Shown in pieces: positions 143-60,985 of a DNA stretch of 64,000 bases; the stretch's first letter is position 1, and every line of letters starts with the position of its first letter. The notes under the pieces are model-generated. The model ran no database searches. It was not told the DNA's origin and saw nothing but the letters and a program-made list of their open reading frames with translations. Location of the stretch: the NCBI GenBank assembly GCA_026393755.1, contig JAPKZO010000028.1:1-64000 (forward strand), in the 5' to 3' direction. The stretch is from Acidobacteriota bacterium. Its GTDB lineage: Bacteria > Acidobacteriota > Vicinamibacteria > Vicinamibacterales > JAKQTR01. A program made the position numbers and the translations under genes.

Positions 143-2998
143 CTAGAGACCAATCCGCATGCCGAGGCGAAGGATGCGGGGATTCATGATCTCGAGGACT
201 TGGCCGAACCCGGTGACCCCGCTCAGGCGATAGTCGTACTGGCTGCCCAGCACGGTGCCGGCATTGACCAGATTGAAAACGTCGAGGTCGATGTTGACGC
301 TGACCTTCTGGATCTTGAACTCTTTGCCGATGCGAGCATCGATCGATGTGACGGTCGGAAGACGGTTCGCCCCGACGTCTTTCAGCAGCAGCACCGACTT
401 GCTGCTGCTGAAGTAATCGCCCGTGGCCGTCACGCTGCTCCGGAACCAGGGCCGGCTGAAGCCCTGGCGCATCACCATATTGAATCCGGCGTGAATGCCC
501 CATCGCGCCTGATAGAGGCCGTTGGCAACCCATTGGTACCTCGGGAGGATCTGGTAAATACCGCTCTTGCCCGAGCCAGCCGACGCGGTCACCACCAGAC
601 CGCCATTGACCAGCGGCTCGCCCGGCGATGGAGTCGGATCACCAATCGCAGTCGCCGGGTCGTCAAAGTACTCGCGATGGTCGTTGGTCGAGAACCCCAC
701 GCGCGCCATCCACCTGTTGGACAGACGCTTTGTGGCGCTTGCCTCGAAGCCCAGGTACCTCTGGTGGTACCCGTCACGGCGCGTGTATTCCACACCACCG
801 GTCTGGGCCGACACCGGGACGTTTGCGGCCAGCACCGAGTAATAGGGCACGCTGAACCTGGAGCCGTCGGGCAGCGGCCCGCCAGTGAGCGTCCCGGCCA
901 GAGTGTATGCCGGCGACCTGAGGCCGATGTAGGGCGTCCAGTTGAAGTTGGTGAACCGGCGATAGGTGAACGACGCGCTGATGCCGACGTTGCTGAACAG
1001 TGTGCGATCGATGCCGGCGACAAATTCGTCAATCGTCGGCACCCCATAACTCCCGAGCTGGTTGCGCGCCATCAGCGTGGCGGGATCGAAGCCGCCCCAG
1101 CCGGCCAGAGACGAGGTGTCGATTTCGCCAGGGTCGGCGACGCCGTTACGATTCAAATCGACGGCACGAAAGGCGATGTATCGATCCTGTACCGGCGAAA
1201 TCACGCTCGACGTGCCGTTCCCCAGCTGCGAAGCGAACCGCGCGAAGCTGGCCCGGAGCTGCATCCTGCGCTCGTCGTCGAGCGCATAGGTGATGCCCAG
1301 GCGTGGGGAAAATGAATTCCATGTGATCGCGTCAGCAACGGCCGGCGCGGTGATCGCGGGCAGCCACCTCTCGAAGCCTGGGACTGCGGGCTCGCTCGTT
1401 TGAAGCGTGCCATCCGCCTGGTGATCGTAGCGCAGGCCCACCATGATGGTTGCCCGCCGGGACGTGACGGTGTCGCCAATCCAACCGGAGATGTACTTTG
1501 CGCGGGCGTTCGAGGCAAACGGGCTCTCAACGGTAACGAAGATGTCCGGGTAGCCGTTGTAGTACGACACGATGGACTTGCCGTTGCTGCTCGACACCTC
1601 CGACGTCGTTTCGGCCGTGGCCCGGCGCCAGGACACGCCGAACTTCAGCTCGTGGCTGCCGCGGAAATAACTGCCCTCCGCCATCATTACCTGCTGCGGC
1701 CGGTTGGTGTGGTAATCCCATGAGGAACCGTGCCAGACACCGCTGTCGTCGTAGTAGACGTCCCTGTTCATGCCGCCCTGAGGCACGAGGTCGAACCTGC
1801 TGGGCATGTGCGAGCCGCGCACAGTCAGGAACAGGTCGCTGTTCACGACGACATTCACCTCGCCCTTGTAGAAATTGCTCGGACCGGTCTGGTTGACGGT
1901 CGTCTCGGGCGGACGCGTGGCGCTCGCGTTGCGCCCGAACGCCTGCTTGTCGCCGTGGAACCACAAGAAGCTGGCGCGGACGTTCCCGGTCGCCTGTCCC
2001 GGAATCTTCGTCGCCCAGTTCGTGAGCGACGTATCGTCCGGGGTCTGCCTGATGGTCAGCGTGTCCACGTCGGTCCGGCCCATCGACCCCCACATCCACA
2101 GCCTGTCCCTGACAATCGGGAAGCCGGATTCGAAACCAGTGTCCAGGTACTTCTTGATCCGGTTGCCATTGCCGTCCGGACTTCCAAGCGCAGTGGCCAG
2201 CACGGCGGGCATGTTGTTGCCCTGCATCGACTGGCTTTCGTAGTAGATGCGGGCCGATCCACGCGGCGTATTGCTGCCGGATCTCAGAATGAAGTTCAAC
2301 GCGACTCCACCCGTCGCGCTCGACATGTCGCTCCCCCCCGTCGTGACATTCATCTCCTGGAACATGTCGAAGTCGTAGTAGGTCGGCGTCGATCCGGTGG
2401 CTGCCATGTCGGTGATCGGGATGCCGTCGAGGTTCCACGTGTTGTCGCCGCTGGGTGCGCCCTTCGCCTGATACGCGGACTGCTGGCCTGATTCCGACCC
2501 CCCGACATTGACGCGATCCACGATGACCCCTGGCACGGTCTGCAGGACAATCCACGGATCACGCGCCAGCGGAATATTCTGGAGCTCATCGAGCGTCACG
2601 CTGGTCGAGGTCGCAATCTTGTTCCTGTCAATCACAAGAGTCCTAGCCGCCACCTCGACCTTCTCCCTGAGGCCGCCGATCGCGAGGGCCGCCTTGAGCT
2701 GGACGTTGCCTCCAGCTGCGACCGACACTGACGCATTGACGTAGTCGGCGAACCCGGACAGCGAGGCCGTGATCTGATACGTGCCCGGAGCGAGGCTCAG
2801 GAACCGGGCGGCGCCATCGGGGCCCGTCACCCTGGTGTCGTGCTGCGGCCCCGTCACTTCGACCAGCACACCGGACAGAACTGCTCCCGTGCCATCGACT
2901 GCCGTGATTTCGATGCGGCCGGTCGATACCTGTGCGGCGGCCGGAATCCCGACGGAGAGGGTCAGAAGCGCGATCATCGAGAGTTGGTTAAACTTCAT
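143..2998 (-). CDS. TonB-dependent receptor, carboxypeptidase-regulatory (Oar-like) type
   Basis: This is a 951-residue outer-membrane receptor. Residues 1-22 look like a signal peptide ending AAA-Q. Residues about 25-110 form a carboxypeptidase-regulatory-like beta-sandwich (GRIEITAVDGTGAVLSG). A plug domain follows at about 125-235, with the motifs LARDPWIVLQTVPGV, NLDGIPITDM and GGVALNFILRSG. The remainder is a beta-barrel ending in a strand with terminal Leu (RLGMRIGL). It resembles the receptor at 22110-25163 in the plug (same DPWIVL, NLDG-DITDM and YYDFD blocks), so the two are probable paralogues. Family knowledge: such proteins import large substrates (oligosaccharides, peptides, siderophores) using TonB energy; the ligand cannot be read here. 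Its 79-bp upstream gap carries a partial copy of the dispersed repeat. The ribosome site is modest (GGGCGGGA, 8 nt before ATG). Confidence 0.88.
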   Translation of the reverse strand: MKFNQLSMIALLTLSVGIPAAAQVSTGRIEITAVDGTGAVLSGVLVEVTGPQHDTRVTGPDGAARFLSLAPGTYQITASLSGFADYVNASVSVAAGGNVQLKAALAIGGLREKVEVAARTLVIDRNKIATSTSVTLDELQNIPLARDPWIVLQTVPGVIVDRVNVGGSESGQQSAYQAKGAPSGDNTWNLDGIPITDMAATGSTPTYYDFDMFQEMNVTTGGSDMSSATGGVALNFILRSGSNTPRGSARIYYESQSMQGNNMPAVLATALGSPDGNGNRIKKYLDTGFESGFPIVRDRLWMWGSMGRTDVDTLTIRQTPDDTSLTNWATKIPGQATGNVRASFLWFHGDKQAFGRNASATRPPETTVNQTGPSNFYKGEVNVVVNSDLFLTVRGSHMPSRFDLVPQGGMNRDVYYDDSGVWHGSSWDYHTNRPQQVMMAEGSYFRGSHELKFGVSWRRATAETTSEVSSSNGKSIVSYYNGYPDIFVTVESPFASNARAKYISGWIGDTVTSRRATIMVGLRYDHQADGTLQTSEPAVPGFERWLPAITAPAVADAITWNSFSPRLGITYALDDERRMQLRASFARFASQLGNGTSSVISPVQDRYIAFRAVDLNRNGVADPGEIDTSSLAGWGGFDPATLMARNQLGSYGVPTIDEFVAGIDRTLFSNVGISASFTYRRFTNFNWTPYIGLRSPAYTLAGTLTGGPLPDGSRFSVPYYSVLAANVPVSAQTGGVEYTRRDGYHQRYLGFEASATKRLSNRWMARVGFSTNDHREYFDDPATAIGDPTPSPGEPLVNGGLVVTASAGSGKSGIYQILPRYQWVANGLYQARWGIHAGFNMVMRQGFSRPWFRSSVTATGDYFSSSKSVLLLKDVGANRLPTVTSIDARIGKEFKIQKVSVNIDLDVFNLVNAGTVLGSQYDYRLSGVTGFGQVLEIMNPRILRLGMRIGL

Positions 2999-3021
2999 AA
3001 TGGCGTTCCCGCCCTTCCCTT

Positions 3022-3063
3022 CTTGGTTCGAGGGGCCGCTCCGGAAGCCGCCCTCCCGCCGGC
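3022..3063 (-). repeat. Structured dispersed repeat, copy E (left end only)
   Basis: This fragment carries the family's left end, read on the minus strand as GCGGCCCCTCGAACCAAG, preceded by an arm of the GGCGGGAGGGCGGCTTCC type. The core and the partner arm are absent, so it cannot form the full terminal stem. It lies in the short gap between the serine hydrolase/NamZ gene and the receptor start at 2998, so it is probably within the receptor leader. Confidence 0.6.
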
Positions 3064-3077
3064 ATCAAGGCTCCCTG

Positions 3078-13149: not shown

Positions 13150-13334
13150 GGTGCCGTGGCGCTTTGCGAAGCGGCCCCTCGAACCAAGCCGATCAGCGTC
13201 AGTTCGCAAAACGGACCGTGAGGGCCAAGACGGGCTGCGCGAAGAGCGCAAACGTAAGACCGGCGACGAGTCCCGGCAAGGTTCGTTTTGCCGGCTTGTG
13301 TGAGCGGGGACGCGGAGCGAAGCGCCACGGCACC
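13150..13334 (+). repeat. Structured dispersed repeat, copy A (complete)
   Basis: The terminal arms 13150-13167 and 13317-13334 pair at 17 of 18 positions (GGTGCCGTGGCGCTTTGC against GCGAAGCGCCACGGCACC). Inside, GCGGCCCCTC near the left arm can partly pair with GAGCGGGGACGC near the right arm. GCAAAACG pairs with CGTTTTGC, and TGCGC-GAAGA-GCGCA forms an internal hairpin. The core is shared with copies B and C, while the arm sequence is peculiar to this copy. Confidence 0.8.
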
Positions 13335-13342
13335 GTAGCCCC

Positions 13343-13404
13343 GGTAAAGCATGTTTTGCCGGTTTGTGTGAGCGGGGACGCGGAGGAAATCGCCCTCCCG
13401 CGCG
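13343..13404 (+). repeat. Structured dispersed repeat, remnant A2 (right half)
   Basis: This copy has only the family's right end (TTTTGCCGGTTTGTGTGAGC, then GGGGACGCGGA) followed by a right arm GGAAATCGCCCTCCCGCGC. No partner left arm is nearby. It lies 9 bp after copy A in the same orientation, so the two form a partial tandem. Confidence 0.7.
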
Positions 13405-37757: not shown

Positions 37758-37863
37758 CGTCACCCCGGCGCAAGCCGGGGCCCCCAACGCGGCAACCGCG
37801 TTGGGGTGGTATACGGGGTCCAGAGAGGTACAGGGCTGGATTCCGGCGTACGCCGGAATGACG
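37758..37863. repeat. GTCACCCCGG dispersed repeat, copy 1
   Basis: This is a compound repeat of hairpins: CCCCGGCGCAAGCCGGGG, then CAACGCGG-CAA-CCGCGTTG, then ATTCCGGCGTACGCCGGAAT at the far end. It shares most of its first 70 bp with 45252-45320. It lies between convergent genes (37701 plus, 37917 minus), where the hairpins could act as a bidirectional terminator. Confidence 0.7.
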
Positions 37864-37916
37864 AAATCAAAGGCATCGTTCTGACGCCGATTGCCGGCGT
37901 CAACACCATGAGCGGC

Positions 37917-45251: not shown

Positions 45252-45320
45252 CGTCACCCCGGCGGTATCCGGGGCCCCCGATGCGGCAGCCGCGTTGGGG
45301 TGGCATCCGGGGTCCAGCCG
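45252..45320. repeat. GTCACCCCGG dispersed repeat, copy 2 (shorter)
   Basis: It corresponds to the first 70 bp of the copy at 37758, including GCGGCAGCCGCGTTGGGGTGG-type hairpin arms and the closing CGGGGTCCAG. The distal ATTCCGGCGTACGCCGGAAT hairpin is missing. It lies in the 148-bp gap upstream of the aldolase-like gene. Confidence 0.65.
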
Positions 45321-46587: not shown

Positions 46588-46795
46588 CGCGGGAGCACGG
46601 TTCCTACGTGTCCCCGCTCACACAAACCGGCAAAACGTGCCTTGCCGGGACGGGTCGCCGACCTGACGGTTGCGCTACTCGCGCGGCCTGTCTTGGCCCT
46701 CACGGCGCGTTTTGCAGACTCACGCCCTTCGACTTTGCTCAGGGCTTCGCTGTCGGCTTGGTTCGAGGGGACACTTCGGAAACCGTCCTCCCGCG
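46588..46795 (-). repeat. Structured dispersed repeat, copy C (complete, with insertion)
   Basis: The arms 46588-46604 (CGCGGGAGCACGGTTCC) and 46778-46795 pair except for one mismatch and one extra base. The core matches copies A and B in reverse orientation. It carries an extra 25-bp segment (CCCTTCGACTTTGCTCAGGG) not found in A or B. It lies in the 283-bp gap between hpnE and thiI. Its inner GCAAAACG/CGTTTTGC pairing is intact. Confidence 0.8.
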
Positions 46796-51828: not shown

Positions 51829-52008
51829 GGGATGGCCTCTCTCTCCGCGTCCCCGCTCACACAAGCCGGCAAAGCGCACCTTACCGGACTCGTCGCCGAC
51901 CTGACGTGTGCGCTCTTCGCGCAGCCCGTCCTGGCCGTCACGGTGCGTTTTGCGAACTCACGCTGATCGGCTTGGTTCGAGGGGCCGCTTCGAGAGAAAG
52001 GCCATCCC
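51829..52008 (-). repeat. Structured dispersed repeat, copy B (complete)
   Basis: The arms 51829-51845 (GGGATGGCCTCTCTCTC) and 51992-52008 (GAGAGAAAGGCCATCCC) pair at 16 of 17 positions. The core is the closest to copy A, in reverse orientation, with the same TGCGC-GAAGA-GCGCA hairpin. It fills the gap between the convergent NUDIX and YgfZ-like genes, starting 5 bp after one stop and ending 4 bp before the other. Confidence 0.82.
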
Positions 52009-60899: not shown

Positions 60900-60985
60900 T
60901 GCCGGCGGGACGCCGGTTCCTCCGCGTCTCTGCCTGTTCCTTCCTGGTTCGAGGGGCCGCTCCGGAAACCGCCATCCCGCCGGCA
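60900..60985 (-). repeat. Structured dispersed repeat, copy D (core deleted)
   Basis: Long arms (60900-60920 and 60964-60985) pair with two mismatches and one bulge. Between them only the two conserved ends remain (CGAACCA and GAGACGCGGA on the minus strand), so most of the core is missing yet the arms still match. It lies between the E2 stop and the lipB start within one operon. Confidence 0.75.

Follow-up and report, generated by a model that had tools for sequence, protein, structure and literature searches.

An intergenic element that recurs in the window (the whole 64-kb stretch of DNA analysed here) is probably a mobile, MITE-like hairpin whose fold is under selection. What its copies preserve is the fold and not the sequence, which changes in pairs, and the outer arms of the hairpin, its least conserved part, match each other within each copy. 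The original prediction had placed four copies, A to D, in the window, and all four were located there (Table 1), with the arm matches that it had described (17/18 in A, 16/17 in B, one mismatch plus one indel in C, and two mismatches plus one bulge in D). The family, whose overall span is 70-240 bp, comprises a long form of approximately 150-200 bp and a short form of 70-85 bp that lacks the entire apex. Copy D had been described as keeping only the two ends of the element, and it does consist of the arms and the basal stem only, but it is not a degenerate remnant, as at least five such short forms are present in the genome.

Table 1. Copies of the hairpin element in the 64-kb window, with the parts of copy A (positions are those of the window).
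Feature	Position	Strand	Remarks
Copy A, long form, complete hairpin element	13150..13334	+	Covariance-model match 13154-13332, 200.6 bits
Copy A, left arm, GGTGCCGTGGCGCTTTGC	13150..13167	+	17/18 complementary to the right arm of A
Copy A, core, with the invariant internal-loop sequences CCCCTCGAACC and GTGAGCGGGG	13171..13315	+	Invariant alignment columns
Copy A, right arm, GCGAAGCGCCACGGCACC	13317..13334	+	Pairs with the left arm of A
Copy A, equivalent of the congener's group II intron insertion site; A itself is intron-free	between 13290..13291	+	
A', right-half element duplicate adjoining A, with a different arm (F2 type)	~13337..13401	+	
Copy B (= L004), long form, lying between NUDIX and GcvT-like genes that converge on it	51829..52008	-	
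Copy C, long form, its bulge containing an additional palindrome, CCCTTCGACTTTGCTCAGGG	46588..46795	-	
Copy D, short form, arms and basal stem only	60900..60985	-	Covariance-model match 60906-60977, 34 bits
Short-form fragment, left arm and basal stem, right arm lost	~2996..3064	-	

The element is a single long hairpin in which both the arms and the apex are variable. The folding energy of copy A is -106 kcal/mol (z = -6.75), and a divergent copy from another genus of the family (L034) takes the same shape (z = -7.1). From the base upward, the variable arms are followed by a GAA/GGA internal loop and by a GCG.CCCC stem whose strands CCCCTCGAACC/GTGAGCGGGG are invariant, and the hairpin then continues through a GCCG stem and an asymmetric bulge to a GCAAAACG/CGTTTTGC stem and the variable apex; the internal-loop sequences CUCGAACC/GUGAGCGGGG fall within the predicted long stem. 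The inner pairings pointed out in the original prediction belong to this fold. When 26 copies were compared in a plain sequence alignment, double-sided changes were present in 22 of 52 pairs. Among 30 copies from many genera, whose alignment was fitted to the covariance model and leans toward structure for that reason, they were present in 44 of 51 pairs, with 93.8% of the cells paired (cells that, the copies being mutually related, count non-independent events). The covariation score of these 30 diverse copies was 0.614, as against 0.166 for shuffled and 0.06-0.09 for slid partners. Covariation, which it had been proposed to assess with a covariance model, is thus strong (44/51 pairs) and, together with the strand polarity described below, strongly supports the structured fold that had been suspected. 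Paired changes that keep a fold, and not a sequence, are not usual in 'junk' mobile DNA, and suggest a function of one strand in folded form.

Which strand folds can be read from the mismatches in the arms. If the fold mattered only as double-stranded DNA, G·T and A·C mismatches would be expected in equal numbers, because the composition of the right arm is the complement of that of the left. With the arms aligned by identity alone and no wobble bonus, the mismatches on the A strand comprised 84 G·T and 33 A·C (p = 2.7e-6), counts that are likewise non-independent owing to the relatedness of the copies; counted by copy, 36 against 12 lean toward a G·T excess (p = 0.0007). The G·T:A·C ratio was 17:12 in the own genome, 28:11 in the congener and 39:10 in the others, i.e., the excess is strongest outside the own genome. 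Therefore, the A strand is the folding molecule, as RNA or as single-stranded DNA. This polarity also bears on a DNA-level hairpin in which paired changes stem from template switching between the arms at replication (quasi-palindrome correction), with the fold itself unselected. Some arms are indeed near-identical, such as those of copy A (17/18) and L017 (21/21), while in relatives of the same arm type (L002 and L024) the left arm differs from the right, and loci with mosaic arms exist (e.g., L210), both of which would suit such a process. However, quasi-palindrome correction gives no strand preference, in conflict with the 84:33 excess of wobbles over complements, and the internal stems with invariant loops covary too. 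As a complete explanation, template switching is thus quite unlikely, and it probably contributes without explaining the whole.

Across 28 long copies, the pairing of each arm with its own partner scored 26.2 on average, versus 14.3 +/- 0.97 for pairing between copies, and none of 100,000 permutations reached the observed value, so that the match between left and right arm within each copy, which the original prediction had noticed in the window, is far beyond chance. Among dispersed copies, L003 and L004 (copy B) are identical at 142 of 144 core positions against just 7/16 and 8/16 in the arms (p = 4e-13), the arm agreement being no higher than chance; L014 and L021 likewise match at 143 of 145 positions of the core, their arms at 11/16 and 9/16. 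Over all pairs of copies, the similarity of left arms follows that of right arms (rho 0.68) more closely than core similarity follows that of the arms (0.17 and 0.32). The arms travel paired and are decoupled from the core. The arm types are present in both species, that of the window and its congener, and are therefore older than the species split. The simplest reading is that cores are swapped between copies and that the exchange stops where homology ends, in which case the decoupling of core and arms would reflect gene conversion. Hence, the recombination-generated element that had been considered at first survives as an added process, in which cores are exchanged among copies that keep different arms.

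Decoupled cores and arms travelling in pairs would also be expected if the core were itself the mobile unit and inserted into the centre of ready-made palindromes, the arms being its target. Such targets should then be found without a core, yet a pattern search retrieved no stand-alone arm palindromes in two genomes, and none of at least 13 bp resembling the arms occurs in the window. The arm types are, in addition, homologous and share an outer GGTGCCG-like end, and the ends recognised in other lineages (see below) lie outside the arms. We consider this origin of the arms very improbable, and retain the exchange of cores between copies with differing arm pairs.

In the window's own genome (4.43 Mb in 42 contigs; G000), a DNA search with copy A recovered 21 copies of the long form along with numerous partial ones, and the covariance model gave 27 matches there and 35 in the one congener (G001), a few of these 27 and 35 being reverse-strand or tandem duplicates of other matches. 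Of 162 genomes of the order, 20 gave matches to a first covariance model, and a second one, built from diverse copies, picked up the family in 18 of the 396 genomes of a phylum-wide sample, every one of them from the same order. Several genera have at least six copies each in that sample, six being as many as were scored, and many genera have sporadic single copies. The search of the core in related Acidobacteriota, which had been suggested at the outset, thus located a family that in the 396-genome sample is confined to one order. A pattern scan of a genome collection returned only two Acidobacteria/Acidobacteriota MAGs (G002 and G004) and three chance matches that do not fold as the element does, and the family was unmatched in plasmid collections, phage collections and viral contigs. 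In the reading favoured here, the family has long been resident in a single order of Acidobacteriota. The congener shows further variants of its own: at L146-L150, a second apex type (CGTTGCAGGCCAAAGG...CCGGCCGGAAACG) sits on the same basal stem, apices having been exchanged as modules, and L146 (C17:57821-58255) contains a tandem array, with a period of 73 bp, of several right halves and their arm. Positions 37758-37867 and 45252-45317 of the window hold another kind of dispersed repeat, CGTCACCCCGGCG...GGGGTCCAG, which is also present in the congener.

The copies examined in the own genome and in the congener are intergenic, as had been stated for those of the window, two of them being in nominal overlap (a few tens of bases) with a crudely called ORF. 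Relative to their neighbours, 21 copies lie in the same orientation, 16 in the opposite one, 9 between convergent and 4 between divergent genes, counts that rest on a purpose-built crude gene caller. The element has no coding capacity, the copies examined are flanked by ordinary housekeeping and regulatory genes without any common neighbour or partner gene, and no conserved promoter was found at the copies. Sites are gained and lost rapidly between the congeners, each of which carries tens of copies. The site of copy B has no element in the congener, and at two sites where both species have one, the orientation is opposite and the arms are different. No clean empty site with a target duplication was recovered in the congener, where the entire intergenic region differs.

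Two further explanations were weighed. The first is a dispersed family of trans-acting structured ncRNA genes with a function of their own, copied around the genome with mobility as a secondary matter. The order-wide covariation, the strand polarity and the invariant internal loops all accord with it, as do the sporadic single copies in many genera, but it would have to accommodate the rapid turnover of tens of copies between congeners, an orientation that is random with respect to neighbours (21 same, 16 opposite), the absence of a conserved promoter or neighbour, IS1380-type ends in several lineages, and short forms devoid of the whole apex; we regard it as unlikely. The second is a transcription terminator or mRNA-end element (a bidirectional hairpin with A-tract and U-tract) that the host keeps at gene ends. 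The layout of A-run, GC stem and T-run and the scarcity of copies between divergent genes (4/50) are as expected of a terminator. The U-run is short, however, and buried in a longer stem, most genes have no element, and the sites turn over rapidly between congeners, which leaves this role highly unlikely.

A mobile origin of the hairpin is most apparent outside the genus of the window. In four other families of the order (G005, G020, G006 and G016), inverted repeats that resemble CCCGGATTATTCATGAAT stand at a fixed distance from the hairpin. Most copies have them, with 1-5 mismatches, on one side or on both, whereas the best of 2000 random window stretches had 6 mismatches. This repeat also delimits two insertion sequences of G006, which have CTAG or TTAG outside them and transposases that match DDE_Tnp_1_4 (PF13701; E 1e-76 and 5e-124); on the basis of that Pfam family, we assign them to the IS1380 family. 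Four-base duplications accompany several hairpin copies, namely CTAG at L234, L171 and L248 and TTGG at L162:10293, and are imperfect or absent at others. Judged by these ends, the element in other families of the order is most likely an IS1380-type MITE. The MITE-like reading put forward originally is therefore supported in those families by their IS1380-type ends, some copies also having CTAG-like duplications. In the genus of the window such ends are absent: the single IS1380-family transposase of the own genome has different ends, and no target duplication was recognised in own-genus copies. PF13701 is present in G000, G001, G002 and G006, and gave no match in G004, G005, G009 and G020. 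In the window's genome, mobility would be deduced from the dispersal of the copies and from their presence or absence at given sites. G005 also harbours a second, unrelated MITE family of approximately 209 bp (e.g., L287-L293), which shares the IS1380-type ends and likewise has 4-bp duplications, and some hairpin copies of that genome are joined to pieces of it.

It had also been proposed that the arms are renewed on insertion, which the data do not support. The copies of G005, which have the clearest IS1380-type ends, all bear the same arms (own pairing 30.3, other pairing 30.2), and therefore arms are not renewed at each insertion. Likewise, the single copy that occupies the same place in both species (L017/L041, with flanks aligning over approximately 3.1 kb at 82%) keeps its arms, in which one pair has changed on both sides and two changes have produced wobble pairs.

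The hairpin has in turn served as a landing site for other sequences. Eight copies of the congener are interrupted by a group II intron at an identical base, TTTTG|CCGG, each of them splitting the assembly (at the starts of contigs C5, C8, C9, C14 and C20 and the ends of C33, C37 and C38), and these eight contig ends have a common intron start, TTTTG|GTGCGCCGTGAAG. The 3' side of the intron was found at another contig end, L320, where domain V (Rfam RF00029, 50.6 bits) is followed by AC|CCGGCTTGCGTGAGCGGGG. The shared start in eight copies and the RF00029-matching 3' side therefore identify the hairpin as a repeated target of a group II intron, used always in the sense of the A strand and at the same base; the stem ahead of the T-run at this site resembles group IIC targets. 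Additionally, a CCTTCGACTTCGCTCAGG-type palindromic repeat is nested inside the element at recurrent positions, mostly in the asymmetric bulge, as seen at 46722-46757 of the window and in L008, L015, L017, L018, L021, L045 and L046.

In the mechanism that we favour, non-autonomous MITE-like elements would move between intergenic sites, most likely mobilised in trans by an IS1380-family transposase where IS1380-type ends exist, such ends having presumably been lost or replaced in the window's genus. The A strand folds into one long hairpin whose internal loops are invariant and whose apex varies, and selection would hold the fold over the sequence, letting the arms drift and change in pairs. 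Dispersed copies would exchange cores by recombination (gene conversion) that stops where the arms differ, which would leave the same core between different arm pairs. The folding molecule may be RNA produced by read-through from neighbouring genes, and the folded A strand could benefit the element or its host, for example in transcript protection or processing or in recognition for transposition. A rather unlikely variant is that the element is primarily a mobile structured RNA. The invariant loops of its folded A-strand transcript would then be bound by a protein of the host or of a transposon and copies would be retained for the function of the RNA, IS1380 ends being only one of several vehicles that spread it through the order. 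Short palindromic elements of bacteria are commonly regarded as parasites that are defined by their sequence and have conserved termini. In this family variability is greatest at the ends, the fold persists order-wide and one strand is clearly the one that folds, which makes the survival of a mobile element on the basis of RNA shape testable. Core exchange and repeated landing of a group II intron further offer a natural system for the study of concerted evolution and intron spread.

Among known families, Rfam gave no match at the gathering score, nor at E <= 1 over six element loci, and no paper describing this family was found with the search terms used. The original prediction had allowed for unrelated arms in most other copies, for insignificant covariation or for a family already described; what was found is arms that match in nearly all copies, strong covariation and no Rfam match. 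Two types of system were compared and set aside. Retron msr-msd loci, with their a1/a2 arms, occur as single copies beside a reverse-transcriptase gene, whereas the element is multi-copy and the only reverse transcriptase of the genome lies on another contig, none flanking the copies examined; it is a retron-like protein of 317 aa (L195 1258-2211, contig C7), is encoded beside a 348-aa gene, and no other RVT_1 protein was found in the genome. As for integron attC sites, inspection of the alignment showed no paired core-site motif that stands out, and there are no cassette arrays. Among the closest known systems, REP/BIME sequences are dispersed intergenic palindromes and hot spots for other insertions (PMC1525189), a likeness shared by the element, and REPs are 20-40 bp long with GTAG/CGTC tags (PMC3733652). 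The elements here are of 70-200 bp with no such tag beside the stem, and the associated RAYT (Y1_Tnp, PF01797) had no match in the window's genome, being present in G001, G002 and G004.

The other close systems are IS1380-family MITEs and two described hairpin families. Hairpins of G005, G006, G016 and G020 resemble IS1380-family MITEs in lying inside CCCGGATTATTCATGAAT ends shared with the IS1380-family elements of G006, with CTAG/TTGG duplications at several copies, and differ from them in that the ends are absent from the window's genus and the interior holds a conserved fold with covariation in place of IS remnants. Correia/NEMIS elements of Neisseria are intergenic and non-autonomous, occur in 107- and 155-bp forms that differ by an internal segment, and form a long hairpin in transcripts (PMC2229807). 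Our element is similarly intergenic and non-autonomous, with long and short forms and a long hairpin, whereas Correia/NEMIS elements have conserved 24-bp terminal repeats with TA ends and the outer arms here are least conserved and match within a copy only; host order and sequence differ as well. ERIC/IRU sequences of enterobacteria are imperfect intergenic palindromes of 127 bp with internal insertions at fixed places, whose folded RNA affects the neighbouring mRNA in an orientation-dependent manner (PMC2229807). Compared by description, both are long intergenic hairpins with internal insertions at fixed places, but ERIC/IRU has a short conserved terminal repeat where our element has its least conserved part. 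To our knowledge, order-wide covariation or arm exchange has not been reported for ERIC/IRU. Collectively, these comparisons indicate a previously undescribed family that works like ERIC and Correia elements, which likewise form long hairpins and come in short and long versions, and that is set apart from both by ends that are its least conserved part.
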